DNA of 64,000 nucleotides from Gammaproteobacteria bacterium. Lineage in GTDB: Bacteria; Pseudomonadota; Gammaproteobacteria; Steroidobacterales; Steroidobacteraceae. This document shows positions 1-58,513 of the stretch, piece after piece. Position numbers and translations under genes: made by a program. Position 1 is the stretch's first letter. Each line of letters starts with the position of its first letter. The DNA lies in NCBI GenBank assembly GCA_947469285.1, contig CANIOW010000001.1, positions 62,001 to 126,000 of the forward strand, read 5' to 3'. The notes under the pieces are model-generated. The model was not told the origin of the DNA, made no database searches, and saw nothing but the letters and a program-made list of their open reading frames with translations.

Positions 1-1276
1 CCGGGAGCCAGCGACGCAGATAACGGCGGTGCGGGTCGAAACGCTCGCTTTGCAGTACCGGGTTGAAGATGCGGTAGTACGGCGCGGCGTCGGCCCCGCA
101 GCCGGCGGTCCACTGCCACCCAGCGGTGTTGTTGGGCAGGTCGGCATCTACCAGGGTGTCCCAGAACCAGCGCGCGCCTTCCAGCCATGACTGGCCCAGG
201 TTTTTCACCAACAGCGAGGCGGTGATCATGCGTACCCGGTTGTGCATCCAGCCGGTATGCCACAGCTCGCGCATGCCGGCATCGACGATGGGGAAACCGG
301 TGCGGCCACGTTGCCACGCGCTGAGCAGCTTGGCGTCAGTACGCCAGACCAGTTCGGCGAAGCGACGGTCGAGCGGCGCATCGGTGGTGTGCGGGAAGTG
401 ATACAAGAGATGGTGGTTGAATTCACGCCAGCCCAGTTCGCGGATGAAAGGCTCTGCACCACCACTTACGCCCACGCGTCCGCCGCGCAATACAGCCGCC
501 CGTGTCGCAGCGAGTGCCTGCCGTGGCGACAGTTCACCAAAGTGTAGATGCGGCGATAATTTGGAGGTGCCCTCAAGATCCGGACGGTTTCGGTCGTCTT
601 GGTAGTTGGGGATGGGACCGTCAAGAAACGCCTCAAGTTGTGCCTGTGCGCCTGCCTCACCCGGGCTCCACGAGTTCGCCAATCCCGCCGCCCAGTCGCG
701 CTGCGGCAGGAGTTCGAGGGCATCGATGCTCACGCCTACAGGCACGGTGGTGGGTGATAGCAGTTGATGTGGAATGGGCAAGGGTGCAGGCAACAGGTCC
801 AGCCGTGCATGGCAGTTCTTCCAAAAGGGGGTGAACACCCGGTACGGATCGCCACTGCCGCTTTGCGTCTGCCACGGTTCAAAGAGCAGGGCGGCGTTGC
901 TGCTCTCTGCCTGAATGCCGTCTGCGCGCAAGACACTCTTGATGTGCGCGTCGCGCGCGATCACCGCCGGTTCATACAGGCGGCTCCAGTAGACGGCGCT
1001 AGCGCGCGTTTCTTTGATCAGCGCGCGCAAGGTCGCCAAGCTATCGCCGCGGCGGATCACTAACGGCAGGCCACGCTCAGCCAGCGTAGCTTGCAAGGCG
1101 CTCAGCGCATGGTGTAACCACCAGCGAGTGGCAGCCCCGGGCTGCCATGGGGCTTCTTCGGCCGCGGCGTCGATGTAAACCGGCACCACGTGGTCGTGTG
1201 CCGCGGCCGCGGCAGTGAGCGCAGGATGGTCGGCCAGACGCAGGTCGCGCCGGAACCAGACGAGGGCAGTGGTCAT
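1..1276 (-). CDS. phrB: Deoxyribodipyrimidine photolyase, C-terminus cut by window edge
   Basis: This is a class I CPD photolyase, which repairs UV-induced pyrimidine dimers using FADH and light. About 425 residues are visible of a family length near 470; the C-terminus lies beyond base 1. The N-terminus (TTALVWFRRDLRLADHPAL) is the antenna-binding alpha/beta domain. The C-terminal FAD domain shows TGFPIVDAGMREL, GWMHNRVRM, a WFWDTLVDADLPNN stretch and the GWQWTAGCG segment. The ATG at 1276 gives the expected conserved start. It lies 17 bp downstream of the htpX stop on the same strand, so the two probably share a transcript. I am sure of the family, less sure of the photolyase versus cryptochrome role, although the active-site motifs look like a true photolyase. 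Confidence 0.95.
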   Translation of the reverse strand, partial: MTTALVWFRRDLRLADHPALTAAAAAHDHVVPVYIDAAAEEAPWQPGAATRWWLHHALSALQATLAERGLPLVIRRGDSLATLRALIKETRASAVYWSRLYEPAVIARDAHIKSVLRADGIQAESSNAALLFEPWQTQSGSGDPYRVFTPFWKNCHARLDLLPAPLPIPHQLLSPTTVPVGVSIDALELLPQRDWAAGLANSWSPGEAGAQAQLEAFLDGPIPNYQDDRNRPDLEGTSKLSPHLHFGELSPRQALAATRAAVLRGGRVGVSGGAEPFIRELGWREFNHHLLYHFPHTTDAPLDRRFAELVWRTDAKLLSAWQRGRTGFPIVDAGMRELWHTGWMHNRVRMITASLLVKNLGQSWLEGARWFWDTLVDADLPNNTAGWQWTAGCGADAAPYYRIFNPVLQSERFDPHRRYLRRWLP

Positions 1277-29180: not shown

Positions 29181-30715
29181 ATTCGCGTGATCGTTCCTTT
29201 GATGGTGTGGCACTGGGCGCGGTCTTCGACCGGGCGCAGCTGGTGCTGGGCGGCAACAGCGTACTGCGCGGGGTGCGTTGGACGATTGCACCGGGAGAGC
29301 GCTGGATCCTTGAAGGCGCGAATGGTGCGGGTAAAACCCAGGTCTGCAAGTTACTCGCCGGCGAGCGTTGGCCGACGCCGACGGCCACCGTCACCACCCG
29401 CCGTACGCGCAAGGGTCAAGGTGATGGCCTGCGCTGGACCGATGCCGCGGGTCACGACGTCGACGCGCTGGAGGCTTTGCCGCGCATCGTGCATGTGTCG
29501 TCAGAACATCAAGACCGCTATGCGCGCCGTGACTGGAATCTAAAGCTGCGCGAGCTCATCGGTACGGGCTTCGATCGCAGTGACATTCCGTTGCGGAAGC
29601 TCACCCGCGTGGAGTCGGCCGTGGTGACGCGCGCGGTGCGCGCTTTTGGTCTGCAAGCGCTTGAACGGCGCCGCTTTCTGAGTTTGTCCTATGGCGAACG
29701 TCGTCGCGTACTGCTGGCGAGAGCGTGGGTAGCGCGGCCTGCCTTGCTGCTGCTCGATGAGCCCTTGAATGGTTTGGATGCCAAGAACCGCCGCCAGGTA
29801 CAAGCGGCACTGCGCGTGTTGCTGCGACGACGTTGTACGGTGGTGCTCACCACGCATCGCGCGGGAGAGTTGCTGCCTGGCTTTACGCGCGTAGCGCGGA
29901 TGGTGCAGGGCCGGGTGGTGGTGGCCAATCCATCCGCCTCCCCGGTGGCCACGGCCGCCACGAGAGGCGTACGTTCGCTCGCGACCGAGCCTGTCTCACC
30001 CACCGGCGAGTTGCCCTTGCCGCGGCCGGTGTTGCTAGCCTTGCGTCAGGTCGATCTGTATCGCGAATGGCGTCTCGTGTTGCGCGGCCTCGATTGGACG
30101 TTGCACCGCGGCGAGCAGTGGGGGGTAGTCGGCGCCACGGGCAGTGGCAAGTCGACCCTGTTGCAGTTGCTGCATGGCACGCGTTGGCCAGCTTTCGGTG
30201 GTTCGGTACAGCGGGCCGGACATCCGGCGGGGACGCCGATTGACGACTGGAAACTACGCGTGGGTTATGTGTCGCCGGAGCTGCAGACCCTGGCGGTGGA
30301 CGACGCCATGGGCGCTGGTTCATTGCGTGATCTGGTGGTTGGCGGCTGGCGCGGTAGCCTGGGGCTGGATTGGCCGGCCACCCCGCGGGAGCGGCAGCGG
30401 GCACAACGGGCACTGGAGGCGGTAGGTCTCGGGGCCCTCGCCGAGCGGTATCCACGCGAAGTGTCGTACGGGCAGCTGCGTTTGGCCTTGCTGGCGCGCG
30501 CGTTGGTACGCGACCCGGAGCTGTTGATACTGGACGAACCCTTCACTGGGCTGGATGCGCCGACCCGTGAGCGCCTGCGTCAGGAGATAGAGCGTCGGGT
30601 CGCGGCAGGCACGACGCTCGTGATGGCGGTCCACCACGCCGGGGACCTACCCGGCGGGACGATGCGGCGCCTTGAACTGCGCCGCGGGCGGGTTTATTTC
30701 TCGCCGTTGAGGTAA
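29177..30715 (+). CDS. modF: Tandem ABC ATPase, ModF/PhrA-like
   Basis: A 512-residue soluble protein with two ABC nucleotide-binding domains. Walker A motifs are GANGAGKTQ and GATGSGKST. Signatures are LSYGERRRVLLARA and VSYGQLRLALLARA, with Walker B at LLLLDEPLNGLD and LLILDEPFTGLD. Length and tandem form match ModF of E. coli, tied to molybdenum metabolism, and it sits opposite the moe/moa operon. No modABC transporter is in the window. The start is GTG. The 3' end overlaps the convergent Rieske gene by 22 bp. Confidence 0.78.
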   Translation: MNSRDRSFDGVALGAVFDRAQLVLGGNSVLRGVRWTIAPGERWILEGANGAGKTQVCKLLAGERWPTPTATVTTRRTRKGQGDGLRWTDAAGHDVDALEALPRIVHVSSEHQDRYARRDWNLKLRELIGTGFDRSDIPLRKLTRVESAVVTRAVRAFGLQALERRRFLSLSYGERRRVLLARAWVARPALLLLDEPLNGLDAKNRRQVQAALRVLLRRRCTVVLTTHRAGELLPGFTRVARMVQGRVVVANPSASPVATAATRGVRSLATEPVSPTGELPLPRPVLLALRQVDLYREWRLVLRGLDWTLHRGEQWGVVGATGSGKSTLLQLLHGTRWPAFGGSVQRAGHPAGTPIDDWKLRVGYVSPELQTLAVDDAMGAGSLRDLVVGGWRGSLGLDWPATPRERQRAQRALEAVGLGALAERYPREVSYGQLRLALLARALVRDPELLILDEPFTGLDAPTRERLRQEIERRVAAGTTLVMAVHHAGDLPGGTMRRLELRRGRVYFSPLR

Positions 30716-32058
30716 CGGTCAACCTCGCGCTGGTAGTGCCGTATGCGCGACTCCTGCTCCGACCACAGCGGACCACGGAAGCCGCGTGACTTGCTGCCCT
30801 TTTGGACGCTGGCGATCAGTTCCACGTCCTGGTTCAGCACCTCGCCGAGGTCTGCGTTGGACATGTCATCCGCCGCATGACGCTCGATTTTCGGCCGCGT
30901 CATGCCAGTGATGTCGGTGTTTGTCGGCAGCCCCATCCACGCCGGCACGAAGTAGTTCGGGTCGTCGACGTACCGGAACATGATCATGTTGTCGTAGTAG
31001 AAACGCTCAGGATCGGTCGGGTGCGGTACGAACCGCATCACGAAGACGCCTTCCGGGTGCATGCCGATCTGCACATTCGGGAAGAAGCCCGTCGCCCAGC
31101 TGTCGGTCAACTGCCCGTCGGTCAGCTTGTCGTAGTGCGTCAAGCCAAGGCGCGCGGCGCGCTCCCGCTTGGCCTTTTGGACGGCGGCACGCACACCACT
31201 GGCGTCACCGGTGTAGCTCGCCGGGTCCATGCCAGCTTCGCGCATCATGAACTGTAGATTGGCGTCGACCGTGGTCTGGTCACCCACGCGGTGGCTCTTG
31301 GTGCAGATCGGCACGATCATGCGCTGGAAGCCGTTGGGGTAGGTATCCAGCTGCGACTGGTCTTCCATCACGCTTTGCGTCTGCGGATGGATATGGGGCA
31401 GATGGTAAGTCTCGACGAAGCCGTCGAGCCCCGTCTTCCAGTTGGCCATCCACTCGGTGGTCTGGTGACGCACCACATGCATCTTCTCGATTTCGTAGTT
31501 TTCGATGTAGCCAGGGGGCAGGCCGATCCACTCGCGCAGCGGTGGCGCCTTGCCATCCATGTTCACGAAGATCAAGCCGCCGATCTGGTCACAGCGCAGT
31601 TCGGTCATGCTCGGCCGGTGCGCCACCAGCTGCGGGTGGAAGCTTTCTTCGTCGGTGATGCAGTCGAGCTTGCCGTCCTTGCCAAACTTCCAGCCGTGGA
31701 AGGCACAGGTGAATTTGTCGACCGACCCAGAGTCATTCAGGGCGATGCGGTTGGCGCGGTGCGGGCAGACGTTGTAGAACGCCTTGATGCTGTTGTCTTC
31801 CTGGCGCACGACCAGAAAGCTCTCGTGGCCATGTTCGAAGGTCAGGTAGTCGCCGGCTTCGGGGATGTCCGGCGTAACGCCGACCAGCAGCCAGACGCGC
31901 GGCCACAGGTGCGTCCACTCTTTTTGCATGAACTCGCGCGAGTAGTAGCGCGAAGGATCGAGCACATCAAGGCCATTGTTGACCGTGGGACGCTTAGCAT
32001 CGAGAGCGCCCGCTGCGGCGGAGGGGTTCAGGACAATCGGGTTCAGATAGTCAAGCAT
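30694..32058 (-). CDS. Rieske aromatic-ring-type oxygenase alpha subunit (RHO 1)
   Basis: A 454-residue Rieske non-haem iron oxygenase alpha subunit. The [2Fe-2S] site is Cys98-Pro-His100 and Cys118-x2-His121 (NVCPHRANR, CAFHGWKFG). The mononuclear-iron histidines are His219 and His224 in TYHLPHIH. No beta subunit is nearby, so a homo-oligomeric enzyme is likely. It hydroxylates or demethylates an unknown substrate and needs an outside electron supply, probably one of the ferredoxins at 42637 or 61644. It is monocistronic, with its own palindromic operator 71 bp upstream. Confidence 0.92.
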   Translation of the reverse strand: MLDYLNPIVLNPSAAAGALDAKRPTVNNGLDVLDPSRYYSREFMQKEWTHLWPRVWLLVGVTPDIPEAGDYLTFEHGHESFLVVRQEDNSIKAFYNVCPHRANRIALNDSGSVDKFTCAFHGWKFGKDGKLDCITDEESFHPQLVAHRPSMTELRCDQIGGLIFVNMDGKAPPLREWIGLPPGYIENYEIEKMHVVRHQTTEWMANWKTGLDGFVETYHLPHIHPQTQSVMEDQSQLDTYPNGFQRMIVPICTKSHRVGDQTTVDANLQFMMREAGMDPASYTGDASGVRAAVQKAKRERAARLGLTHYDKLTDGQLTDSWATGFFPNVQIGMHPEGVFVMRFVPHPTDPERFYYDNMIMFRYVDDPNYFVPAWMGLPTNTDITGMTRPKIERHAADDMSNADLGEVLNQDVELIASVQKGSKSRGFRGPLWSEQESRIRHYQREVDRYLNGEK

Positions 32059-32151: not shown

Positions 32152-32718
32152 TTAGCTGGCAGGGTCGGGGTTGAACGGGCAGGTGGGTTCGCGTTCGACC
32201 AGTTCGAGCACGAAGCTCAGTTTTGCCATGCCAGAAATGACCGCCATGACCACGCCCAATTCCAGGATTTCCGGTTCGTTGAAATGCGCCTTGAGGCGTG
32301 CCAGCAGTTCCGGGGTGAGTTGACCCTGGTGGTTGGTCATCTTCACTTGGTCGGCATAGGCGATCACGGCTTTTTCAGCGTCGGTGAACGGGCCGCTCTC
32401 GTAGCGGTCCATGGCGTCCACTTGCGCCTGCGTGATGCCGGCGGCGAGGGCGCCTGGCACGTTCTGCTTGTTGCAAGTCAGACAGCCGTGTTCGATGGAC
32501 AGCTTCAGGCGCACCAGCTGCTTGTAGCGCTGCGCCACGCGACCGCCGAAAAACAGCGGCATGTAGAACTGACCCATCACGAACTGCAGCAGCTCCGGGG
32601 CCTGAGCAAACACTTCCACGAAGGTGGCATCACCGGTCAGCCCGTTCATGGTGTCCCAAGCCGGACGCCAGTCGCCAAGTTGGTCGCGTGGAACACGCGA
32701 TAGCAGTGTGTTGATCAT
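32152..32718 (-). CDS. Carboxymuconolactone decarboxylase/AhpD-like protein
   Basis: A 188-residue all-helical protein of the CMD/AhpD superfamily. The core motif is LSIEHGCLTCNKQNVPGALAAG, with a CxxC pair; the usual histidine after the pair is replaced by Asn/Gln. Such proteins can be peroxidases, decarboxylases or accessory factors in catabolic clusters. The ATG at 32718 is preceded by GGAGGGGGGAACG, a strong ribosome site, while the longer open frame upstream is not protein-like. It is the last gene of the leftward RHO2-KAS-thiolase operon. Confidence 0.82.
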   Translation of the reverse strand: MINTLLSRVPRDQLGDWRPAWDTMNGLTGDATFVEVFAQAPELLQFVMGQFYMPLFFGGRVAQRYKQLVRLKLSIEHGCLTCNKQNVPGALAAGITQAQVDAMDRYESGPFTDAEKAVIAYADQVKMTNHQGQLTPELLARLKAHFNEPEILELGVVMAVISGMAKLSFVLELVEREPTCPFNPDPAS

Positions 32719-32765
32719 CGTTCCCCCCTCCGAAGTAACCCGCTGCGTGCGGGCGTGGTAACTGT

Positions 32766-33980
32766 TCAGGTGTCCATCAGGCCCAGGATGGCGATACTGG
32801 TGACATTCCGGTTCGGAATGCCGCCGAGATTGTGCGTCAGGCCGAGGGCAGGCGCCCGCCCAGCGCGCTGGATTTGCCGCTCGCCAGCACGACCGAGCAG
32901 CTGGGTGTAGACCTCGTAGGCCATCCGCAGCCCGGAGGCGCCCACTGGGTGACCGAAGCATTTGAGGCCACCGTCCACCTGGCAGGGGACGGCGCCCGTG
33001 CGGTCATAGCGGCCGTCGCGGACATCGAAGGTGGCGCGGCCTGCGGCGGAAAAGCCGAGATCTTCCATCAGCACCAGTTCGGTGATGGAAAAACAGTCAT
33101 GCACTTCGATCAGGTCGATTTCCCCGGCCGGGTCGGTGATGCCGGCTTCGCGGTAGGCCCGCGCTGCCGCAATACGGGTGGTGGGTGTGTGCGCACCATC
33201 CCAACTGGCATGGGACAGTTCCACGCCGTTGGATGACGCCAACTGCAGTGCCTTCACGGTAACGACTTCGCGATGCCCCAGACTGCGGGCAATTTCCGGT
33301 GTGGTGACGATGGCGCAGGCGGCCCCGTCGCTGACACCACAGCAGTCGAAGGTGCCGAGCGGGTAGGCGATCATGGGCGCCTGCAGAATCTGCTCGATGC
33401 TGATGCGGTTGCGCAGGTGCGCCTTCGGGTTCAGCGCGGCATTCTCGTGGCTCTTCCAGGAGATGTGCGCCATGGCGCGTTTCACCTCCTCCATGGGCAG
33501 GCCGTGTTTGGCCGCGTAGGCGGCACCCAGCTGCGCAAACGCGCCGGGTGGGGTGAAGCCGGGCTGCCAGAGATCTTCAAACGTGCCCTTGGGCCGTTCG
33601 GGTAGGCCGCCAAAGCCGGTGTCCTTGAGTTTTTCCACGCCCATGGCCAGCGCAATGTCGACCGCACCGGAGGCCACGGCATAGACCGCACCGCGCAGTG
33701 CTTCGGTGCCGGTGGCGCAGAGATTTTCCACGCGCGTCACCGGAATATTCGGCAAACGCAGCGCCATCGACAACGGCAGGCCGGATTTGGAGGTGGACTG
33801 TTCTTGGTAGAACACCCCGAGCCAAGCGGCTTCGAGGCGGTCGCGTTCGATGCCAGCATCGGCGGAGGCTTCCTGAAAAGCCTCGAGCATGAGATCGTCT
33901 GCGCCCGACTCCCAGCGTTCTCCAAAACGCGAACAGCCCATGCCGACAATGGCTACTTGATCCCGGATACCGCGCGCCAT
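32766..33980 (-). CDS. Thiolase-like acyltransferase (SCP-x/PhlC type)
   Basis: A 404-residue thiolase-superfamily protein of the sterol-carrier-protein/non-specific-lipid-transfer type. The nucleophile is Cys88 in ENLCATGTEAL, and the C-terminal active-site loop is CFGHPVGASGLRM. The VHDCFSITELVLMEDLGF segment is typical of this subfamily. It lies 3 bp after a KAS/HMG-CoA-synthase-like protein fused to DUF35. That trio of parts is the make-up of PhlACB (a C-acetyltransferase complex) and of the archaeal thiolase/HMG-CoA synthase complex. A bond-forming or bond-breaking role on a beta-keto acyl unit is inferred. Confidence 0.87.
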   Translation of the reverse strand: MARGIRDQVAIVGMGCSRFGERWESGADDLMLEAFQEASADAGIERDRLEAAWLGVFYQEQSTSKSGLPLSMALRLPNIPVTRVENLCATGTEALRGAVYAVASGAVDIALAMGVEKLKDTGFGGLPERPKGTFEDLWQPGFTPPGAFAQLGAAYAAKHGLPMEEVKRAMAHISWKSHENAALNPKAHLRNRISIEQILQAPMIAYPLGTFDCCGVSDGAACAIVTTPEIARSLGHREVVTVKALQLASSNGVELSHASWDGAHTPTTRIAAARAYREAGITDPAGEIDLIEVHDCFSITELVLMEDLGFSAAGRATFDVRDGRYDRTGAVPCQVDGGLKCFGHPVGASGLRMAYEVYTQLLGRAGERQIQRAGRAPALGLTHNLGGIPNRNVTSIAILGLMDT

Positions 33981-33983
33981 GAG

Positions 33984-35444
33984 TCAGTCCCCGGCCGTGC
34001 CCGCGGGCACCGCCTTCCAGAAGTAACGGTGAAATCCACGCACCGTATCGCGGTCCTTCACGCGGAAGGCGAAACGGACCGCTTGCCCCACTTGCATCTC
34101 GCCGGGGGCGGCGTCGGTGAATTCGATAAAGGCGTTGCCGCCTTCGGCAAAAGCAATATTGCCGTACACCAGCGGTGGCGCGGGCGTGTAGGCGAGCCAG
34201 TCTTCGGTGAAGGTCTTCACGCGGGCTGGCATGTCAGCGAGGCGTGCTTCCTCCTGCGTGTCGAAACGGCGGCACTCAGGATTGACGCAGGCGCGCGTCA
34301 GCGGGTATTGCACGGTGCCACAGTCCCGGCAACGACCGCCGATGAGCGCGGTGACGGTGCGGTGCTTGCGCCAAGCGGCGCTTTGCGCGGTGCGGTTGTC
34401 GCGTTCCCCCCGCATGCCGAGTTCCATCTCCAGCAGTTGCTGGTGCGCCAAATAGCGCGTGTACGCAGTATCCGTGCGGCCGGACTGTAGCGCCTTGGTG
34501 AAGCCACCCAGTGCGGCGGCGGGTGTTCCGGCCAATGTTCCGGCGCGCAGCAACAGGGCATCCACTCCTTGCCCGAAGCCGATGACCAGAATCAGCGCGC
34601 CTGGCTGTGCCTGTTCCAGCGTGGCGGCGAGCAACAGCAACGGATGCGCCGTGCCGGTATCCCCCACGCGTTTGGCCTGCGTATCCACAAAGCAGGTATC
34701 GCGCAGGCCGGTGGCCTTGGCCGCGGCTTTTTGCGTGGCCAGCGACGCGGGTAACACGCAGTGGTCAATGTGGGCTGCGGTTACGCCAGCCAGACGCAAT
34801 ACTTCCGCCACGGCCGGCGGCAGCAGCGTGCCCCAGCCGGCATCGCGGACCCAGCGTTCCTCAAGGGTGTAATCGAAAGCTGCGCCGGTGGCACGGTGGT
34901 GGTCGACGAAGTCGGCGGTGATGGAGGTCCCTGCCAGATATTCGGCCAGCACCTGCTCGCCGTGACCGACGAGCAAAGCCGCGGCGCCGTGGCCGTAGCT
35001 GCTCTCCTGGGGGCTGGCAGGTTTGGCACGTCGCGACTCGCTGGCGACCACCAGCGTGGCCGGACAGGCCGGGTCAGCGGCCGCCTGAAAGGCGGCCAGC
35101 AGCGCGGAGGTGCCGGCGCGCTGCGAGCCGGCATGGTCGCGCACCTGCAGCGCACCCTCACGGCCGAGAGCGGCGGCGACGAGGCCGGCATTGCTGCGGT
35201 CGGCAAACGGAAAGGTAGTGGAGGCAAACGCCAGTGCGCCGAAAGCACTGTGGGTGGTGTCAGTGCCGCTGGCCGCACGCGCTGCTTCCACGGCCATGGT
35301 CAGGCTGTCTTCATCCCATGAGGTGTAGCTGCGTTCACCGCCCTTGGGCAGGTTTGGGTTAAACCAGCCGTGGGCGCCGGCAATGGCGCTCCGCGCCAGA
35401 CGCCAGCGTGGCAGGTAAACGCCTAGTGCAAGGAGTGCGCGCAT
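33984..35444 (-). CDS. KAS/HMG-CoA-synthase-like protein fused to DUF35 zinc ribbon-OB domain
   Basis: A 486-residue fusion. Residues 1-340 have the HMG-CoA-synthase/KAS III fold (GVYLPRWRL, DEDSLTMAVEAAR, SSYGHGAAALLVG). The stretch that normally carries the catalytic cysteine (as in ACKAGT) reads SQRAGT here, so Gln108 seems to replace Cys, by eye. Residues about 365-480 are DUF35: a zinc ribbon with CRDCG and CVNPEC, then an OB fold (VKTFTEDWLAYTPAPPLVYG). Partner thiolase follows 3 bp downstream and a Rieske oxygenase precedes it by 5 bp. I read it as a PhlA plus PhlB fusion. Confidence 0.82.
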   Translation of the reverse strand: MRALLALGVYLPRWRLARSAIAGAHGWFNPNLPKGGERSYTSWDEDSLTMAVEAARAASGTDTTHSAFGALAFASTTFPFADRSNAGLVAAALGREGALQVRDHAGSQRAGTSALLAAFQAAADPACPATLVVASESRRAKPASPQESSYGHGAAALLVGHGEQVLAEYLAGTSITADFVDHHRATGAAFDYTLEERWVRDAGWGTLLPPAVAEVLRLAGVTAAHIDHCVLPASLATQKAAAKATGLRDTCFVDTQAKRVGDTGTAHPLLLLAATLEQAQPGALILVIGFGQGVDALLLRAGTLAGTPAAALGGFTKALQSGRTDTAYTRYLAHQQLLEMELGMRGERDNRTAQSAAWRKHRTVTALIGGRCRDCGTVQYPLTRACVNPECRRFDTQEEARLADMPARVKTFTEDWLAYTPAPPLVYGNIAFAEGGNAFIEFTDAAPGEMQVGQAVRFAFRVKDRDTVRGFHRYFWKAVPAGTAGD

Positions 35445-35449
35445 GCGAT

Positions 35450-36721
35450 TCAGCCTTGATCCGCGCCCGGGAGTGTGCCCACGGGGTTGGTACTGACAAA
35501 GGGGGCGAGCAGCTGGGTCACTCGCAGGTGTTCCGGTACGCGTTCAAGGCCAATGCGCCGGTCCAGTTCTTCATGCCAGTGGTAAATCCGTCGCTCCTGA
35601 TAATTCAAGGTCAGTCCGCGAAAGCCAGCCGACTCGACGGACTGCTGGATGTATTCGGCGAACTGGGTATCTTCGTAAAGGATACGCTCGAAATTATCGA
35701 TACGCGCTTTCCACAGCGGTGACAGCGGTTCGCCGCCAGTGTCGGGCGAGAACCAGACGACTTCAATCTCCATCTCGCGGTCGCCGCAGGGCCAGAACAG
35801 CAGGAAGGGGATCCCGCTGTCGGCGATGGGGGTGACGAGATTCGGGTAGAACATGAACGACGGGTTGTTCTTCGCGGTCAGTGCCGTAGCGCCTGGAACG
35901 CGTGGCATGCCTTTGGTGCCCGGGTCTTCCCAGTCCGGACGGCGGTTCGGGGTGAGCATCAGCGAACAGCCGCGGGGCCACAGCGTGATGGTGGTGCCGC
36001 GGTGGTCAAGGAAACGGTCGACGGTCTGCTGGTGAATGGACTTGAGGTGGTAGACCTCCAAGAAGGCATCCAGCAACACTTTGACGTTGCACTTCACGCG
36101 ATAGCTTTTTTTGTGCACAAAGCGCGTCTGCTCAGGCTTCACTTCCTCGAAGTACCACGGAATATGTCCGAGCGATTCGAGCAGCGGCATGGCGTCTGCC
36201 GCTTCATTGACAAAAATGAAGTTGCCGAGGCGTTCGCAGCGCACGGTCGCCAGCCCATGGCAGTTCAGGTCCATCTCGTTGAAATCGCGCTTGTCGCGCA
36301 AGTTCACCAGACGCCCATCCAGCGTGTAGGTCCAGCCATGGTATTGGCAGACGAGGCCATCGACCTGGCCTTGGAGGTCTTTTACCAGCGGCGCACCGCG
36401 GTGCCGGCAGGTGTTGTAGAAGGCGCGGATGACACCGTCCTTGCCATGCACGATGAGCAAGGGCGAGCCTAGGCGGGTGAACTGCAGGAAGTGCCCGGGC
36501 TGCGGAATTTCATCCAGATGGCAGGCATAGAGCCAGGCGCGTTTCCACATCCCTTCGGCTTCAAGTTTGAGAAATGCGGGGTCGGTATAGCGGCCGGCGG
36601 GAATGAGCGGCAGCGTGGGGAACCCCTCAGGTGGCCCGGTACGAGCGAACTCGTACTGCATGCTGGCCAGCAGTTGTTCCACGACTTGCTCGCGTGAAAC
36701 GGGGGTGGGGGGGGTCGACAC
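35450..36721 (-). CDS. Rieske oxygenase alpha subunit (RHO 2)
   Basis: A 423-residue Rieske oxygenase alpha subunit. The cluster site is Cys105-x-His107 (NTCRHRGAP) and Cys125-x2-His128 (CQYHGWTYTLDG). The catalytic iron region is DAFLEVYHLKSIHQQ. I placed the start at GTG 36721, which has GGAGG seven bases upstream; the open frame extends 29 codons further without family resemblance. It is the first gene of the operon RHO2-KAS/DUF35-thiolase-CMD and reads away from the GST operon, with operator B between them. Confidence 0.9.
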   Translation of the reverse strand: MSTPPTPVSREQVVEQLLASMQYEFARTGPPEGFPTLPLIPAGRYTDPAFLKLEAEGMWKRAWLYACHLDEIPQPGHFLQFTRLGSPLLIVHGKDGVIRAFYNTCRHRGAPLVKDLQGQVDGLVCQYHGWTYTLDGRLVNLRDKRDFNEMDLNCHGLATVRCERLGNFIFVNEAADAMPLLESLGHIPWYFEEVKPEQTRFVHKKSYRVKCNVKVLLDAFLEVYHLKSIHQQTVDRFLDHRGTTITLWPRGCSLMLTPNRRPDWEDPGTKGMPRVPGATALTAKNNPSFMFYPNLVTPIADSGIPFLLFWPCGDREMEIEVVWFSPDTGGEPLSPLWKARIDNFERILYEDTQFAEYIQQSVESAGFRGLTLNYQERRIYHWHEELDRRIGLERVPEHLRVTQLLAPFVSTNPVGTLPGADQG

Positions 36722-36802
36722 GGGCAGTCCTCCGCAAACAAAGGCACCATGACGGGGGCCGTCGTGGGTCAGGGGCAGTATAGGCAAGCCACCCCCCGAA
36801 AG

Positions 36803-36820
36803 AAACAAGCCTGACTGTTT
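36803..36820. promoter_or_regulatory. Class I palindromic operator, site B
   Basis: AAACAAGCCTGACTGTTT, with the invariant right half TGACTGTTT. It lies between two divergent operons, 81 bp from the Rieske start (36721) and 60 bp from the GST start (36881), and so could control both. Confidence 0.72.
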
Positions 36821-36880: not shown

Positions 36881-37810
36881 ATGGCCGAGTTGATTCTGCA
36901 TCATTTTGATCTCTCGCCGTTTGCTGAAAAGGCGCGTTTGCTGATGGGATTGAAACAGCTGGCGTGGCAGTCAGTGCAGATTCCCATGGTGCCGCCCAAG
37001 CCGGACTTGATGGCGCTGACGGGCGGCTACCGCAAGACGCCGGTGCTACAGGTGGGGGCTGACATTTACTGCGACACCCGCCTGATTGCGCTGGAGCTGG
37101 AGCGCCGTGTGCCACAGCCAACGGTGTTTCCGGGAGGCAATCGCGGTCTGGCACTGGCGCTGTCGGCTTGGTCAGACCGGACCTTCTTTGATCCGGGGGC
37201 CGCGCTTGCCATGGGCACCAACCTGGCCTTGCTACCAGCACCGTTGCTGGAAGATCGCAAAGCGTTCTTCAACTTCATGGATTTTTCGCGACTGGCGGAA
37301 GACGTACCGCACATGTACACGCAGTTGCGGTCGCAACTGGAGGTGCTGGAGCAGATGCTCGGCGACGGCCGGCTCTATGTGAGCGGCACAACCCCCGGCT
37401 GGACCGATATTCATGCCTATTTTCCGGTGTGGATGTTGCGTGGCAACCTGGCCAATGGCGCCGAGATCCTCGCGCCGTTTCCACTGACGGTGGCGTTTGC
37501 GAACCGCATGCTCGCTGTGGGTCATGGTCAGCGTCGTGAACTGACAGCAGCGGAGGCGCTGGCGGTGGCGCGTGCCGCTACCCCGGAAGTGGCCTCTGGT
37601 GTGCTGCTGCAAGATGAGGTGGCGCAGAGCCTGCAGCTGCAGCTGGGCACGGCGGTGACCGTGACGCCGGATGACTATGGTAAGGAGCCGGTGGCTGGCG
37701 CGCTGTACCGTTACGATTTGCAGGTCGTGGCGGTCCGCCGTGTGGATGCGCGCGCTGGCGAAGTGGTGGTGCACTTCCCACGGGCGGGCTACCGGGTTGA
37801 ACGCTCATGA
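36881..37810 (+). CDS. Glutathione S-transferase-like protein with C-terminal extension (copy 1)
   Basis: A 309-residue protein. Residues 1-75 are a thioredoxin-fold GST domain (LILHHFDLSPFAEKARLLMG, GGYRKTPVLQVGADIY). Residues about 95-220 are the helical GST domain. Residues about 228-309 are an extra beta-looking module (LGTAVTVTPDDYGKEPVAG ending GEVVVHFPRAGYRV) not found in classical GSTs. Copy 2 at 38559 shares the whole layout. GGAGGG lies upstream of the ATG. Possible roles are thiol-dependent ether cleavage, dehalogenation or isomerisation in catabolism. Confidence 0.82.
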   Translation: MAELILHHFDLSPFAEKARLLMGLKQLAWQSVQIPMVPPKPDLMALTGGYRKTPVLQVGADIYCDTRLIALELERRVPQPTVFPGGNRGLALALSAWSDRTFFDPGAALAMGTNLALLPAPLLEDRKAFFNFMDFSRLAEDVPHMYTQLRSQLEVLEQMLGDGRLYVSGTTPGWTDIHAYFPVWMLRGNLANGAEILAPFPLTVAFANRMLAVGHGQRRELTAAEALAVARAATPEVASGVLLQDEVAQSLQLQLGTAVTVTPDDYGKEPVAGALYRYDLQVVAVRRVDARAGEVVVHFPRAGYRVERS

Positions 37811-38559
37811 TCGAGTTATTGTTCTACCCCTCGCCAAACGGGCAAAAAGTGGCAATTGCGCTCGAGGAGATGGGGCTGCCCTACCAGGTGACGTTCGTCG
37901 ACATCACGCGTGGTGCGCAGTTCGACCCGGGCTTCCTCAAGATTAGTCCGAACAACAAGATCCCGGCGATGATCGATCACGCTGCCCCCGATGGGCCATT
38001 GGCCTTGTTCGAGTCGGGAGCCATTCTGGTGTACCTGGCAGAGCGCAGCGGGCAGTTCTTGCCGTCTCCGGCAGCAGCTCGCTACACCTGCCTGCAGTGG
38101 TTATTTTGGCAGGTCGGTGGTCTCGGGCCGATGGCCGGACAGGCGCATCACTTCCGTGCTTTTGCTTCGGAACAGGTGCCGTATGGCATCAAGCGCTATA
38201 CCGATGAAGTGAACCGTTTGTATGGCGTGCTCGAACGCCAGTTATCGCTCCACCCTTTTATGGCTGGAGACTATTCGATTGCTGACATGGCCACCTGGCC
38301 TTGGATCACCCACCATGAGCGACAGGGCCAGTCGCTCAGCGACTTCCCCCAGATTGCGCGCTGGTATGCTGCGATGGCGGCGCGACCAGCCGTGCAACGG
38401 GCGGTGTCGCTGGGGCATGAACGGCATGCGGACGCTATTGGTCACCAGCATCTTTATGGGCAGACCGCGGCGCGCGTTAACGCAGCGGCGGGGACTGCTC
38501 CAGCAACGCCAGACCATGTGCCGCCGCCGGCCACCTCACGCGGAACAGGAGTACCTTGA
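37807..38559 (+). CDS. YfcG/Ure2p-like glutathione S-transferase
   Basis: A 250-residue GST of the nu class, close to E. coli YfcG. It has PSPNGQKVAIALEEMGLPY, FDPGFLKISPNNKIPAMIDH, and LFESGAILVYLAERSG, then YSIADMATWPWI in the helical domain. YfcG-type enzymes act as disulfide reductases or peroxidases with two glutathiones. The last 30 residues are Pro/Ala-rich and family-unlike. It overlaps both neighbours (ATGA before, TGATG after) in a three-GST operon. Confidence 0.88.
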   Translation: MIELLFYPSPNGQKVAIALEEMGLPYQVTFVDITRGAQFDPGFLKISPNNKIPAMIDHAAPDGPLALFESGAILVYLAERSGQFLPSPAAARYTCLQWLFWQVGGLGPMAGQAHHFRAFASEQVPYGIKRYTDEVNRLYGVLERQLSLHPFMAGDYSIADMATWPWITHHERQGQSLSDFPQIARWYAAMAARPAVQRAVSLGHERHADAIGHQHLYGQTAARVNAAAGTAPATPDHVPPPATSRGTGVP

Positions 38560-39494
38560 TGGAGACCTTGCCCAACGCTTCCAGCCTGATCCTGCATCAT
38601 TACGATGCCTCGCCGTTTTCGCAAAAAGCTTTGATGATGCTTGGCATCAAAGACGTGGCTTGGTATTCCGCGCTCATGCCCATGATGCCGCCGAAGGAAG
38701 AAATTGCGGCGCTGACCGGGGGTTATCGCGGCACGCCGGTGCTGCAGGTGGGCAGTGACATCTATGTCGATTCGCAGCTGATCGCCCGCGAACTGGATCG
38801 CCTGTTGCCCGAGCCGCCGCTAGTGCCGGTGGTGCACGGTGCCATGGAGCGCATGCTGGTGCGTTGGTCAGACGCATTTTTCCGCAGCGGGCTGGGCATT
38901 GTGCTCGGAGTAGCCTTGCCGTTTTGGCCTGAGGAGTTCCGCAAAGACCGTGAGCACTTGTTCCCGGATATCGATTTCGGCGCTGCCGCGGATAATCTGG
39001 TGCAGGCGCGTACGCAGTACCGCGCACACGCTGCATTGCTTGACGAACAACTGAGCGATGGACGCTCGTTCCTGATGGGCGCTCGCCCGGGCCTAGCGGA
39101 CGTGCAGGCCTGGCCATTCATTTGGATGTTGCGCGCCAACCTGCCAGACCAAGCCACGGCGTTGCTCGCCGGGTTTCGGCATCTGCAGGCCTGGGAGACG
39201 CGCTGTGCGGCGATCGGGCAGGGCTCGCGCGTGGAATTGCCACCGGTGGATGCTTTGGCGGTGGCCTTGGCCACGGCGCCACTCACCCTTGAAAAGATCG
39301 ATGCCGCTGACGCACAGGGTCTACAGGCGGGGCAGTGGGTGACGGTAACGCCGGAGGATACCCGGCGGGGTACGGTCGAGGGGACGGTGGTGGTGGCCAC
39401 GCCCACCTGCATCGCCTTGCGTCGCAGCCATGCGGCGGTGGGCGAGGTGGTGGTGCATTTCCCGCGGCTGGGTTACCGCGTCACGCCGCGCTGA
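38559..39494 (+). CDS. Glutathione S-transferase-like protein with C-terminal extension (copy 2)
   Basis: A 311-residue paralogue of the GST at 36881 (shared SLILHHYDASPFSQKALMML, GGYRGTPVLQVGSDIYVDS, and the extension LQAGQWVTVTPEDTRRG ending EVVVHFPRLGYRV). The ATG at 38559 follows AGGAG by seven bases and overlaps the previous stop by one base. The pair probably arose by duplication around the middle GST or by its insertion. Substrate unknown. Confidence 0.82.
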   Translation: METLPNASSLILHHYDASPFSQKALMMLGIKDVAWYSALMPMMPPKEEIAALTGGYRGTPVLQVGSDIYVDSQLIARELDRLLPEPPLVPVVHGAMERMLVRWSDAFFRSGLGIVLGVALPFWPEEFRKDREHLFPDIDFGAAADNLVQARTQYRAHAALLDEQLSDGRSFLMGARPGLADVQAWPFIWMLRANLPDQATALLAGFRHLQAWETRCAAIGQGSRVELPPVDALAVALATAPLTLEKIDAADAQGLQAGQWVTVTPEDTRRGTVEGTVVVATPTCIALRRSHAAVGEVVVHFPRLGYRVTPR

Positions 39495-39537: not shown

Positions 39538-40761
39538 TCAAACCACGCCTGCTGCCCGCAGCTGTTGTACAGCCGCCGCATCGAAACCCAGTTCGTGCAG
39601 CACGGCGTCGGTGTCCGCGCCGAGCGTGGGGGGCGGACTGCGAATGCCGGTAGGCGAATGCGAAAAATGCAGCGGCAGATCTGCCACGGGGGCAGGGCGA
39701 GCCAGTCCGGGGTAGTCGACTGCACGCAGAAAACCCATGGCGGCTACCTGCGGGTCATCAAGGGCCTGTTGCGGGGTATACACCGGGCCGCCAGGCACGC
39801 CGCCTGCTTCGAGTTGCGCCACGGCTTCGGCCGTCGTGCGCGCTGCGCACCATTGGCGGGTGCGCTCAAGAATGGGCTCTGCGTGGTCGGCGCGCGATTG
39901 GTCACTCTGGAACAGCGAGTCGTCGCTCCAGCGCGCCGCATCATCGCCGTCTTTAGCCATCAGTTTCGCCCAGCGCCGGAACAGGCCATTGCCAACGGTA
40001 TGCATGAGCACGTGACCATCGCGCGTGGCAAAGACGTCCGACGGCGCCGAGGTTTGTACCCGGTTGCCGGTGCCCACGCGGTTGATACCGGTGACACCTT
40101 GCTCCACCAGATGCGAATTGAACACGGCGAGGGCGGTGGCCAGCAACGCCGCCTGTACATGCTGCCCGCGGCCGCTCTGCCGCCGCTCGAGCAAGGCTGC
40201 CAGTGCGCCGAAGGCGGACAGCACGGCGGTGGAATAGTCCACATAGGGGGCCGCACCTTTTGCCGGGTGGCCTGGTGTGCCAGTGATGACCATGGCGCCG
40301 CTCATGGCCTGACCGACACCATCGAAACCACCGCGCGTGGCGTAGGGACCCCGGTCGCCGAAGGCGCTTTGGGTCACCAGAATAATGTCCGGCTTGACGC
40401 TGCACAGCGTGGCGTAGTCGAGCCCGAATTGCGTCAGGGTGGCAGCAGGCAGATTGGCGACAATGATGTCGGCGCTGGCCACCAGACGGCGGGTGACTTC
40501 GCGGCCCGCAGGCGACCCGGGGTCCAGCGTCAGCGAGCGCTTGTTGGCGCTGCACTGCAGGAACACCGCCCCTTCACCCTGTGGAGTGACCGGTGCAATA
40601 TAGCGGTCCTCGCCCCCTTCACGTCGCTCCACGCGGATGACCTCGGCTCCCAGATAGCCGAGCAAAGTGGCACAGTAGGGACCGGCTACATAGCGACCGA
40701 AATCCAGTACGCGAACACCAGCGAGAATGCCCGTTGGCGCCGCCGCTTCCACTTCTTTCAC
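39538..40761 (-). CDS. CaiB/BaiF-family (class III) CoA-transferase
   Basis: A 407-residue family III CoA-transferase. The N-terminal GVRVLDFGRYVAGPYCATLLGYLGAEVIRVE is characteristic, and the likely catalytic aspartate is in PYVDYSTAVLSAFGAL. It moves CoA between acids, so it would activate a pathway carboxylate. The start is GTG at 40761, with AGAGGA eight bases before it; the upstream reading is not conserved. It diverges from the acyl-CoA dehydrogenase gene. Confidence 0.9.
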   Translation of the reverse strand: MKEVEAAAPTGILAGVRVLDFGRYVAGPYCATLLGYLGAEVIRVERREGGEDRYIAPVTPQGEGAVFLQCSANKRSLTLDPGSPAGREVTRRLVASADIIVANLPAATLTQFGLDYATLCSVKPDIILVTQSAFGDRGPYATRGGFDGVGQAMSGAMVITGTPGHPAKGAAPYVDYSTAVLSAFGALAALLERRQSGRGQHVQAALLATALAVFNSHLVEQGVTGINRVGTGNRVQTSAPSDVFATRDGHVLMHTVGNGLFRRWAKLMAKDGDDAARWSDDSLFQSDQSRADHAEPILERTRQWCAARTTAEAVAQLEAGGVPGGPVYTPQQALDDPQVAAMGFLRAVDYPGLARPAPVADLPLHFSHSPTGIRSPPPTLGADTDAVLHELGFDAAAVQQLRAAGVV

Positions 40762-40782
40762 AGTCCGTTTCCTCTGGTCTAT

Positions 40783-40801
40783 GTGGCATATGCGTTGCCA
40801 C
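40783..40801. promoter_or_regulatory. Inverted repeat between divergent CoA-transferase and acyl-CoA dehydrogenase genes
   Basis: GTGGCA (40783-40788) and TGCCAC (40796-40801) are perfect 6-bp arms around 7 bases in the 95-bp divergent gap. The motif is unrelated to the AAACAGTCA-type sites, so another regulator may act here, or it may be chance. Confidence 0.35.
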
Positions 40802-40856
40802 GGCAGGGGATGATGGCACAAGACGACATCTCCGATTCATCGATAAGGACGACGAC

Positions 40857-42017
40857 ATGAACTTTCAGTTGACTGACGAACAGAAAGCCCTGCAGGACGC
40901 CGCTCGGACTTATGCGCAGGAGCGACTGCCGGCGCTGGCGAAAGAGATAGAAGAGACCGGTGAGCCGCCTTCGCATGAACTGATCCGTGAATACGCGGAA
41001 CTTGGCTTCCTCGGTATCAATATCCCTGAGCAGTACGGTGGGCTGGGCTTGGGTAATCTCGAGGCGCTGCTGGTGATCGAGGAGTTCGCCAAAGTCTCTG
41101 GCGCCGTGGCGTTCCCGGTGTTCGAAAGTTGCGTGGGGCCGGTGCGTGCCATCGAGCGTTTCGCGGGTGAGTCGCTGAAGCAGCGTGTGGTGCCTGCTGT
41201 GTGCCGCGGCGAAAAAGTGGTGGCGGTGTCAATGTCGGAGCCGGCTGCGGGCTCGGCCCTGACTGACCTGACCACCCGTGGCGTGGTCACGGGTGATCGC
41301 GTCGTGCTCAATGGCACCAAACGCTGGTGTTCGGGCGGCGGGCATGCCGATGGCTACGTCGTGTACTGTCGGCTGTCGGACGCGCCTGGACCGAAGGGCA
41401 TCGGGGCGGTGTACGTTGAGAAGGGTAACCCGGGTCTCAAATTCGGTAAGCCGGAGCACCTCATGGGCTTTCGCGGCGTTCCTTCTTGCGACTTGTACTT
41501 TGACCAGTGCGAACTGTCCGTCGAAGACATCGTGGTGCCGGCCGGGGGCTTCAAGCAGTTGATGGAGGCGTTTGACCTCGAGCGCTGCGGCAATGCGACG
41601 ATGGCCTTGGCCCAAGCCAGTGGCGCACTGGAGGATGTGCTCCCGTACGTGCAGGAGCGCATTCAGTTCGGCAAGCCGCTGGTCGACTTCCAAGGTGTGC
41701 AGATCAAGCTCGCGGAAATGCAGATCCGCGTCGATGCAGCGCGTTTGCTGATCCACCGTGCGGCGGTGAATTCACAGTCCGGCTTGCCAAGCCTGCTGGA
41801 GTCGTCGGTGGCGAAGTGCTTTGCCAACGAGATGGCGCGCGAAGTCTGTGGCCATGCGGTGCAGTTGATGGGCGGTTACGGCTATTCCCGTGAATACCCC
41901 ATGGAGCGGCGCTTGCGTGATGCCTGGGGCTGGGGCATTGCCGGCGGTGCCGTCGATATCCAGAAGGTGAATATCGCCAGTGCCATGGTCGGTCGTCGCT
42001 TCGATCAGCGCCGTTGA
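40857..42017 (+). CDS. Acyl-CoA dehydrogenase
   Basis: A 386-residue FAD-dependent acyl-CoA dehydrogenase. It has MNFQLTDEQKALQDAARTYA, the flavin-contact region VVAVSMSEPAAGSALTDL, and FGKPLVDFQGVQIKLAEMQI, then GGYGYSREYPMERRLRDA. The usual C-terminal base in YEGTSEIQ is absent (AGGAVDIQ, about residue 363). Glu242 in FDLERCG lies where isovaleryl-CoA dehydrogenase has its base, which would fit a branched or cyclic substrate. The ATG at 40857 follows AAGGA. The VOC gene is 13 bp downstream. Confidence 0.9.
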   Translation: MNFQLTDEQKALQDAARTYAQERLPALAKEIEETGEPPSHELIREYAELGFLGINIPEQYGGLGLGNLEALLVIEEFAKVSGAVAFPVFESCVGPVRAIERFAGESLKQRVVPAVCRGEKVVAVSMSEPAAGSALTDLTTRGVVTGDRVVLNGTKRWCSGGGHADGYVVYCRLSDAPGPKGIGAVYVEKGNPGLKFGKPEHLMGFRGVPSCDLYFDQCELSVEDIVVPAGGFKQLMEAFDLERCGNATMALAQASGALEDVLPYVQERIQFGKPLVDFQGVQIKLAEMQIRVDAARLLIHRAAVNSQSGLPSLLESSVAKCFANEMAREVCGHAVQLMGGYGYSREYPMERRLRDAWGWGIAGGAVDIQKVNIASAMVGRRFDQRR

Positions 42018-44711: not shown

Positions 44712-45779
44712 TTAGCGGTAGTCCTTCATCAGCGTGTCGAGGGCGGCGGCCCCTGGGCAGAGAGCTGAATACGGGAGGTCGGCGAGCGGTGTGCTGACGG
44801 TGTCTGCAACGGCATGCATATCTTGCCCGGACTCGTCGATGAACAGCACGCCGGTGGCCACTTCGCTACGTTTCTGGCACTGGCGTACGTGTAACCAGGC
44901 CTCTTCTCGGTTGGTCGGGTCGTAGCCGGCATGGGTGTTACGAAAGCGCACTAGGCTGCCATCGTGCATGCGCACCGTGGTTGGGCCGTCGGTTTCGTTC
45001 TTGGCAGCCTCGGCGAGGGTGATGGCACTGCGCAACGGCACGTAGTCTGCCGATGTCAATTCCACTTCATGCTCGCGGGTATATTTGTAGCTCTTGGTGC
45101 TGCCTTCGTGGTCGTTAAAACTGACGCAGGGCGAGATGACGTCAATGAGGGCAAAGCCATTGTGAGCCAGCCCCGCCTTGATGATGGGCACCAGCTGCGC
45201 CTTGTCGCCGCTGAAGCTGCGCGCCACGAATGTTGCTCCCAGCGTCAGCGCCAGCAAGCACGGATCGATGGGGGCTTGCACGTTGGCTTCGCCCTTTTTG
45301 CTGGTCGAACCGATGTCTGATGCCGCCGAGAACTGACCCTTGGTCAGTCCGTAGACGCCATTGTTTTCCAGCACGTAGAGCATGCGGACATTGCGTCGAA
45401 TGGCATGGCTGAGTTGCCCCAGGCCAATCGATAAGGAGTCACCGTCCCCGGAAATGCCGATATACATCAGTTCACGGTTGGCTGCGTTAGCGCCGCTGGT
45501 GACACTGGGCATGCGCCCATGTACCGAGTTGAAGCCGTGCGAATTCTTCATGAAATAGGCGGTGGTTTTTGACGAGCAGCCGATGCCACTCATCTTGGCG
45601 GCGCGGTGGGGCGGGCAATCCAGCTCCCAGAAAGCCTGTACCAGCGCTGCCGTGACCGAATCGTGGCCGCATCCGGCGCAGAGCGTGCTCATCGCGCCTT
45701 CGTAGTCTTGCTTGGTCAGGCCGAGAGCGTTCTTCAGCAGGCCCGGGTGACGTATTTGAGGTTTGGCAATAGACGTCAT
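44712..45779 (-). CDS. korB: 2-oxoacid:acceptor oxidoreductase beta (TPP) subunit, KorB type
   Basis: A 355-residue thiamine-diphosphate subunit of a 2-oxoacid:ferredoxin-type oxidoreductase. STLCAGCGHDSVT and GISGDGDSLSIGLGQL with ENNGVYGLTKGQFS form the cofactor site. It works with the alpha subunit just upstream (4-bp ATGA overlap). Probable reaction: oxidative decarboxylation of 2-oxoglutarate or a related 2-oxoacid to the acyl-CoA, giving low-potential electrons. Confidence 0.9.
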   Translation of the reverse strand: MTSIAKPQIRHPGLLKNALGLTKQDYEGAMSTLCAGCGHDSVTAALVQAFWELDCPPHRAAKMSGIGCSSKTTAYFMKNSHGFNSVHGRMPSVTSGANAANRELMYIGISGDGDSLSIGLGQLSHAIRRNVRMLYVLENNGVYGLTKGQFSAASDIGSTSKKGEANVQAPIDPCLLALTLGATFVARSFSGDKAQLVPIIKAGLAHNGFALIDVISPCVSFNDHEGSTKSYKYTREHEVELTSADYVPLRSAITLAEAAKNETDGPTTVRMHDGSLVRFRNTHAGYDPTNREEAWLHVRQCQKRSEVATGVLFIDESGQDMHAVADTVSTPLADLPYSALCPGAAALDTLMKDYR

Positions 45780-52944: not shown

Positions 52945-52949
52945 GGTGT

Positions 52950-53960: not shown

Positions 53961-53970
53961 GTCAGGTTCC

Positions 53971-54975: not shown

Positions 54976-55032
54976 GGGAATCTCCTGAATCCGGCTGACA
55001 GGCCGGCGTGCAGATGCTACGGGAGCGGCCAA

Positions 55033-55050: not shown

Positions 55051-55051
55051 G

Positions 55052-55069: not shown

Positions 55070-55072
55070 TTT

Positions 55073-58506: not shown

Positions 58507-58513
58507 CGTCGAG

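Follow-up and report, generated by a model that had tools for sequence, protein, structure and literature searches.

In this study, we analysed a 64-kb stretch of a genome assigned to the Steroidobacteraceae (hereafter the window, in which all coordinates are given) and examined two adjacent genes on its minus strand, a fusion gene (FUS) and a partner thiolase gene (THIOL). FUS joins a 3-hydroxy-3-methylglutaryl-CoA synthase (HMGCS)-like domain to a DUF35 domain, and the pair quite probably constitutes a CoA-dependent heteromeric catabolic thiolase, in which FUS would be a non-catalytic scaffold and pocket subunit. Its most likely function is the splitting of beta-keto CoA intermediates in the breakdown of bulky compounds. 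In the proposed mechanism, Cys88 of THIOL would take the acyl group from a beta-ketoacyl-CoA with the aid of Cys296 of the HDCF motif and His344, a shorter acyl-CoA would be released and CoA would then resolve the acyl-enzyme. FUS would take no part in catalysis yet be obligatory: its DUF35 part would form the bridge to THIOL, and its pseudo-HMGCS domain would shape a pocket for the bulky acyl-CoA. In the window, this step may come after CoA activation (by a CoA transferase or ligase) and Rieske and short-chain dehydrogenase/reductase (SDR) oxidation of a ring compound. The architecture, residues, pairing and neighbourhoods set out below were observed as such; from them we infer complex formation, thiolysis and the pocket role of FUS, since thiolysis with a scaffold subunit agrees with the residues and the pairing, and also with the parallel that PhlABC and the archaeal acetoacetyl-CoA thiolase (AACT)/HMGCS/DUF35 complex offer. 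The features of the pair are as follows.

33984..35444, minus strand: FUS, pseudo-HMG-CoA synthase plus DUF35, 486 amino acids (aa) (open reading frame, profile, AlphaFold2 model)
34425..35444, minus strand: HMGCS/PhlA-like domain of FUS, residues 1-340 (VIA-align range 1..340 on 6et9_I)
34005..34385, minus strand: DUF35 domain of FUS (zinc ribbon and OB fold), residues 354-480 (profile match of 354-478 to 6esq_E; zf-ChsH2 PF12172)
35121..35123, minus strand: codon of Gln108 of FUS, at the position of the HMGCS catalytic Cys (alignment)
34272..34331, minus strand: zinc-ribbon C372, C375, C386 and C391 of FUS (each kept in 93-95 of the 96 fusions)
32766..33980, minus strand: THIOL, SCP2-type thiolase, 404 aa (NF004810; profile to 6esq_A, 237 bits; model Z 48.9)
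33717..33719, minus strand: codon of the nucleophile Cys88 of THIOL (92 of 92 thiolases; codon checked)
33093..33095, minus strand: codon of HDCF Cys296 of THIOL (89 of 92, gap in the other 3)
32949..32951, minus strand: codon of GHP His344 of THIOL (89 of 92, gap in the other 3)

The catalytic residues of HMGCS are missing from FUS. The motif SQRAGT begins at residue 107 and, as a first-pass annotation of the window had recognized, places Gln108 where the beta-ketoacyl synthase (KAS) cysteine is expected; in our alignment it faces the catalytic Cys of the archaeal HMGCS 6esq_I (FACKAGT), and Thr76 stands at the position of the HMGCS Glu. We aligned 96 fusions, which come from proteobacteria, actinobacteria and a single haloarchaeon; the window is included, 9 plasmid loci were added and L002-L020 were dropped, these being duplicate contigs of L021-L100 in an earlier 106-row alignment. 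Position 108 was occupied by Gln in 52, Leu in 29, Arg in 10, Ala in 2 and Thr, Gly or Pro in 1 each, and by Cys in none; position 76 was occupied by Thr in 92, Ser in 3 and Ala in 1. Loss of the Cys, judged from this alignment, is a family-wide trait of the fusions. A catalytic Cys elsewhere in FUS, a possibility raised by the same annotation, was also rejected, the zinc-ribbon C372, C375, C386 and C391 being the sole invariant cysteines in alignments of 14 fusions (A1) and 33 fusions (A2). FUS as an HMG-CoA synthase was rejected on residues because both the catalytic Cys and the Glu are lost, and the active HMGCS site of the archaeal complex is not present in it; FUS also scored under the cut-offs of all three HMGCS equivalog models that it matched.

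KS-Q domains have Gln at the active-site position and carry out decarboxylation. FUS could in the same manner be an enzyme itself, using Gln108 to decarboxylate malonyl- or carboxyacyl-CoA and thereby feed THIOL, which would be in line with Gln being the commonest residue at position 108 and with the retention of Arg109 in 95 of the 96 fusions. However, the other 44 rows have Leu, Arg, Ala, Thr, Gly or Pro at position 108, and we consider such an activity extremely unlikely. The history of the site was viewed in a FastTree phylogeny of 40 fusions and five solved proteins, a small sample rooted on the distant FabH, in which the fusions formed one clade (support 0.954) and PhlA, MucABC and the Cys-bearing archaeal HMGCS another (0.986), the PhlA-MucABC node having a support of 0.0. 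The grouping of the Cys-bearing archaeal HMGCS with PhlA and MucABC, apart from the fusions, suggests that the HMGCS site may have been lost more than once.

The fusion of a KAS/HMGCS fold to DUF35, which had been proposed from the letters of the window, was borne out by profile matches and structure prediction. The A1 profile matched, over its first ~305-336 positions, the PhlA of CsATase with 157 bits, the best score of any solved structure for this domain, followed by the PhlA of PpATase (140 bits), archaeal HMGCS 6esq_I (125 bits) and the MucABC chain (108 bits), and at positions 354-478 it matched the archaeal DUF35 protein 6esq_E (46 bits) and PhlB (27 bits). The AlphaFold2 model of FUS, built with 33 sequences, had a predicted local distance difference test score (pLDDT) of 88 and a predicted template modelling score of 0.91. 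Its predicted HMGCS/KAS III fold was nearest to archaeal HMGCS 6et9_I (Z 42.0, root-mean-square deviation 2.5, 335 aligned residues), with PhlA (Z 40.6) and MucABC (Z 40.4) next. The four-Cys zinc ribbon of DUF35 was found both by Pfam and in the 96-row alignment. Three of the zinc cysteines are lost in Variovorax SRS16 and all of them in Sphingopyxis macrogoltabida, and a thiolase still adjoins both fusions. The zinc-ribbon-depleted fusions are located at L120:9971-11461 and L106:9983-11413.

THIOL, by comparison, has the complete residue set of an SCP2-type thiolase, namely the nucleophile Cys, the HDCF Cys and the GHP His. It scored 642.9 bits against NCBIfam NF004810 (PRK06157, SCP2-type HDCF thiolase), for which the cut-off is 403. 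The nucleophile Cys88, as assigned in the first pass, was present in all 92 aligned thiolases, and the HDCF Cys and the GHP His were each present in 89, the remaining 3 having gaps. A profile of 25 thiolases (A3), which used 24 of the 28 located thiolases, gave 237 bits for archaeal AACT 6esq_A, 228 for a Pyrococcus thiolase, 186 for SCP2-thiolase and 170 for BbsB, and 83-88 bits for PhlC, 69 for Ltp2 and 66 for the MucABC thiolase. The Z values of the predicted structure were close together, at 48.9 for AACT, 48.6 for SCP2-thiolase, 48.5 for BbsB and 47.0 for PhlC. Because the residues and the profile ranking, and not the fold, separate the candidates, it is on sequence that the chemistry of THIOL is most likely that of a thiolase.

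The pairing of the two genes is highly conserved. A tblastn search with two DUF35 peptide patterns in one contig collection yielded 410 stretches with relatives, of which the best 80 were kept, all 80 of these matching over the full length of the fusion. In 79 of them, FUS is followed downstream by THIOL in the same orientation, the 80th (L025) stopping at the contig end, and this consistency indicates that the adjacency is not due to chance. In L057, L074 and L099, 1.4-1.8 kb separates FUS from THIOL, which leaves room for one inserted gene. Of 98 genomes related to that of the window, its own among them, 26 also had a full-length fusion match, two of these with an in-frame TGA. The fusion is thus common, and the pair occurs also in actinobacteria and a haloarchaeon. 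Grouping at 70% identity reduced the 96 fusions to 55 groups and the 92 thiolases to 12; this difference indirectly suggests that FUS changes much faster than THIOL, as would be expected of a chain freed from catalysis.

We examined the neighbourhoods of the pair by phmmer, taking queries from the window and from annotated loci, in the 53 of the 80 loci that span at least 18 kb, which are not independent of one another. For comparison, 20 controls of 20 kb each were drawn from five genomes, the contig of the window supplying ten. Acyl-CoA dehydrogenase was found in 40 of the 53 loci versus 3 of the 20 controls, SDR in 39 versus 5, AMP ligase in 34 versus 2, class III CoA transferase in 27 versus 0, Rieske alpha subunit in 23 versus 0 and a hydratase (enoyl-CoA hydratase (ECH) or MaoC) in 21 versus 1. 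A dehydrogenase, a hydratase, an SDR or 3-hydroxyacyl-CoA dehydrogenase (HADH) and a CoA-activating enzyme occurred all together in 13 loci and in no control. Plasmid loci gave a similar picture. The order in Variovorax paradoxus is SDR, MaoC, FUS, THIOL, acyl-CoA dehydrogenase and CoA transferase; two ECH genes and a HADH gene lie downstream of the pair in Variovorax SRS16; and beta-oxidation-type genes surround the pair in Diaphorobacter and Rhodococcus, three Rhodococcus records carrying an identical FUS protein accession. On the haloarchaeal plasmid of Natrialba magadii (L141:4823-7446), the pair is reversed, with the thiolase upstream of a 481-aa fusion, followed by HADH and acyl-CoA dehydrogenase genes. 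It is very unlikely that the pair works as the acetoacetyl-CoA thiolase of a biosynthetic route, condensing and not cleaving, given that the condensing site of HMGCS is lost and that many neighbourhoods look catabolic. Two substrate links were tried and rejected: isoflavone catabolism via Variovorax, as the main text of PMC11069340 contains no thiolase, acetyl-CoA or OB-fold, and tomatine via the TomTYG plasmids of Sphingobium, as that of PMC10653915 contains no thiolase or acetyl-CoA.

The first-pass annotation had likened the pair to PhlACB of diacetylphloroglucinol synthesis, and the observation behind this comparison is confirmed. The interpretation is partly supported. There are three PhlABC-like parts, here with two of them fused; the thiolase chain carries the nucleophile, and its partner lacks the Cys, as PhlA does according to passages of PMC6392133. 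A retro-Claisen step stands in the ordinary sense of CoA thiolysis and in no other, and a special kinship to PhlACB chemistry does not hold, because THIOL is closest to archaeal AACT, with HDCF and GHP intact, and the fusions form their own clade beside that of PhlA and archaeal HMGCS. In a PhlACB-like C-acyltransferase with two fused Phl subunits, Cys88 would, independently of CoA, place an acyl group on a phenolic ring carbon or take it off. Such an enzyme would be consistent with the top score of PhlA for the HMGCS domain, the loss of Cys and Glu common to FUS and PhlA, the presence of Cys88 as in PhlC, the adjoining Rieske genes and a Z value to PhlC merely 1.9 under the best. However, THIOL keeps HDCF and GHP and is far nearer to AACT than to PhlC by sequence profile; the genes around it encode CoA enzymes, and a Rieske alpha subunit was not found in 30 of the 53 loci, an absence that is not firm because the queries came from annotated loci and the window. 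We therefore regard this alternative as improbable. When the CsATase PhlA segment was searched against 398 genomes of the phylum, no clear PhlACB orthologue was found (best E 1.3e-30, 32% identity, 487-aa frame); 25 genomes from a guessed genus gave no match with E up to 1e-60, a result that carries no weight.

Several points weigh against a catabolic thiolase with a scaffold subunit. The whole beta-oxidation set was incomplete in 40 of the 53 loci, and none of the sought families was found in four (L044, L057, L058 and L099), with the same limit on absences. The predicted structure of THIOL had an overall pLDDT of 81 and fell below 50 at residues 120-132 and 341-345, the latter being the loop of His344, and the modelled fold of THIOL by itself does not tell the rival explanations apart. 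The distance matrices of FUS and THIOL were correlated with r of 0.895 over 82 loci (maximum of 500 permutations, 0.362), which lends the pair indirect support, but such a correlation would be expected for any adjacent genes moving together. In Paraburkholderia PGU19 (L144:10301-11800), a thiolase homologous to that of the window is split over two frames in the record beside an intact FUS. No biochemical datum on any member of the pair family was found. As for the Rieske-associated loci, a hydratase was found in 2 of 23, versus 19 of the 30 non-Rieske loci, an unexplained contrast, and in the window itself no hydratase domain was found in the 25 proteins scanned with Pfam (30.7-62.8 kb, with 3 further genes named by eye), so that the beta-keto group would need another origin.

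One guess at such an origin is Rieske hydroxylation followed by an SDR. We would go further only tentatively: that the pair represents a widespread class of catabolic thiolases, with a dead HMGCS-DUF35 as obligatory pocket subunit for bulky or ring-borne beta-ketoacyl-CoA, and with a Rieske branch in which a Rieske oxygenase and a dehydrogenase, with no hydratase, make the keto group in an oxygenase-fed thiolytic route, is a rather doubtful proposal taken as a whole. The setting in a Rieske operon is as had been annotated. Five minus-strand genes between 36808 and 30694 encode RO2, FUS, THIOL, an AhpD/CMD protein and RO1 in that order, with gaps of 5 bases between RO2 and FUS and 3 bases between FUS and THIOL. 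These and other neighbours are as follows.

35450..36808, minus strand: RO2, Rieske oxygenase alpha subunit, start codon uncertain and probably inside the open reading frame (Pfam Rieske and Ring_hydroxyl_A)
32152..32718, minus strand: CMD/AhpD-like protein, start inferred, longest open reading frame to 32961 (PF02627)
30694..32058, minus strand: RO1, Rieske oxygenase alpha subunit (Pfam domains)
39538..40821, minus strand: CaiB-type CoA transferase (PF02515, 354 bits)
40857..42017, plus strand: acyl-CoA dehydrogenase, start inferred (Pfam Acyl-CoA_dh domains)

Among the 80 loci, a best-hit homologue of RO2 was present in 31, of the CMD protein in 18 and of RO1 in 22. Naming a substrate via RO1 and RO2 was rejected because their best matches among solved structures are too distant: RO1 is nearest to carnitine monooxygenase and 3-phenylpropionate dioxygenase (E 1.2e-27 each), and RO2 to a putative ring-hydroxylating dioxygenase (E 3.7e-28). 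Three glutathione S-transferase (GST)-family genes stand in a row at 36881-39494, two of them encoding ~310 aa with long C-terminal parts, and homologues occur among the 80 loci in 21 (GSTa), 17 (GSTb) and 10 (GSTc) cases. About 9 kb from the pair, at 44712-49377, are genes for a 2-oxoacid:acceptor oxidoreductase alpha and beta and a GltD-like 4Fe-4S flavoprotein, which are reminiscent of EdcC. The region 51703-61958 holds E1/E2 dehydrogenase-complex genes, an old yellow enzyme/FadH-like reductase, a CoA ligase, a third Rieske alpha subunit (RO3) and a ThuA-like protein, followed by an SDR and a ferredoxin (the last two by eye); E1, E2, RO3 and SDR homologues are also found near the pair in Niveispirillum lacus (L062).

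The pair was also found in an estrogen degradation (edc-type) cluster. On plasmid p3 of Novosphingobium sp. ES2-1, an estradiol degrader according to passages of PMC12507874, the pair (L143:7989-9392 and 9389-10546) stands in the order acyl-CoA dehydrogenase, SDR, FUS, THIOL, two ECH, a small hypothetical protein, a lipid-transfer protein (Ltp), an OB-fold protein and P450. Divergent genes there encode an indolepyruvate ferredoxin oxidoreductase and a pair of VOC proteins. The edc operon of N. tardaugens is arranged in the same way, save for the small gene and a fused ECH. In that operon, the 'HMG-CoA synthase' EGO55_13555 is described, in passages of Ibero 2020 (PMC7793797), as one of two edc genes without an assignable step, which the authors thought might have another activity, such as thiolase. 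The ES2-1 fusion has no catalytic Cys and its neighbouring thiolase has the complete triad, the two being 31% and 44% identical to FUS and THIOL of the window. Because of this arrangement, EGO55_13555 may be the non-catalytic partner of the thiolase EGO55_13550, the two having been matched to ES2-1 by gene order. This would provide a testable answer to the puzzle of the unplaced gene. The edc cluster differs from that of the window in that the A ring is opened by P450, an extradiol dioxygenase and EdcC, not by Rieske enzymes.

The same cluster bears on whether the pair might work as IpfDE, Ltp2-ChsH2 or Sal-Shy do, as a retro-aldolase that cleaves the side chain of a Rieske dihydrodiol off as acyl-CoA. 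These proteins share the superfamily and a DUF35 partner with the pair, and IpfDE (ibuprofen, pIBU218) comprises a thiolase-fold protein and a DUF35 protein beside Rieske alpha and beta genes. IpfABDE is described, in passages of PMC9195938 and PMC10004696, as deacylating the ring by retro-aldol cleavage directly after a Rieske dioxygenase, with release of propionyl-CoA and a catechol. Ring deacylation behind a Rieske enzyme thus has a precedent, although the first-pass annotation knew of no such step in this kind of cluster. However, the retro-aldolases Ltp2, Sal and IpfD have a Tyr motif (YDHF, YDCY and YDAF) in place of HDCF and no nucleophile; IpfD has Gly at the nucleophile position and no GHP, the Ltp-like protein of ES2-1 likewise lacks the nucleophile, HDCF and GHP, and THIOL has Cys88, HDCF and GHP. 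IpfE also differs in being a free OB-fold protein of 132 aa. Both kinds of protein are carried by the single ES2-1 cluster, which suggests that they serve different steps. An IpfDE-type identity was rejected on these residues, and a retro-aldolase reaction of the pair is quite improbable.

The pair, most likely a two-chain thiolase of catabolism in which one subunit is a pseudo-HMGCS-DUF35 fusion, is widespread and apparently not described as such. Full-length copies of it occur in 79 contigs of a single collection as well as on plasmids from several genera. No prior description of a Cys-less HMGCS-DUF35 fusion was found in the open-licence literature by title or abstract start, which is weak evidence of absence, and the sole related statement found was that in PMC7793797 on the unplaced edc gene. 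In the records, the pair is annotated as 'acetyl-CoA acetyltransferase' together with 'OB-fold domain-containing protein', 'HMG-CoA synthase' or '3-oxoacyl-ACP synthase III C-terminal domain protein', so that its role is easily overlooked or misread. With the fusion, a pseudoenzyme joins the DUF35-thiolase superfamily, whose related scaffolds are used for thiolysis, retro-aldol cleavage and Friedel-Crafts acylation.

Among the known systems, BbsAB benzoylsuccinyl-CoA thiolase (7PXP) is likewise a heteromeric catabolic thiolase with a DUF35 partner, and its substrate is a bulky aromatic CoA ester. BbsAB is not known to have an HMGCS domain. BbsB differs from THIOL also in having HDAF in place of HDCF, and BbsA appears in the legend of a DUF35 alignment in PMC12329534. 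PhlABC (PpATase, CsATase) and MucABC (5M3K, 9SKH, 9VBO) resemble the pair in combining an HMGCS-like chain lacking Cys and Glu with DUF35 and thiolase-fold chains, the HMGCS Cys being replaced by Gly in PhlA and by Glu in the MucABC chain, and passages of PMC6392133 state that PhlA has neither residue and that acyl transfer is by PhlC residues only. They differ in that their three chains are separate and their thiolase chains are distant from THIOL, PhlC lying well below AACT by profile and slightly below it by fold. The archaeal AACT/HMGCS/DUF35 complex provides the closest thiolase by sequence, the top of a tied group by thiolase fold, the best DUF35 match and the best HMGCS fold match, and its AACT keeps the nucleophile Cys, HDCF and GH as THIOL does. 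In both the archaeal complex and PhlABC, DUF35 joins the thiolase to the HMGCS-like chains, as passages of PMC12329534 describe. The archaeal HMGCS differs from FUS in that it has the Cys and Glu that FUS has lost, and its HMGCS and DUF35 are separate proteins, whereas they form one chain in FUS.

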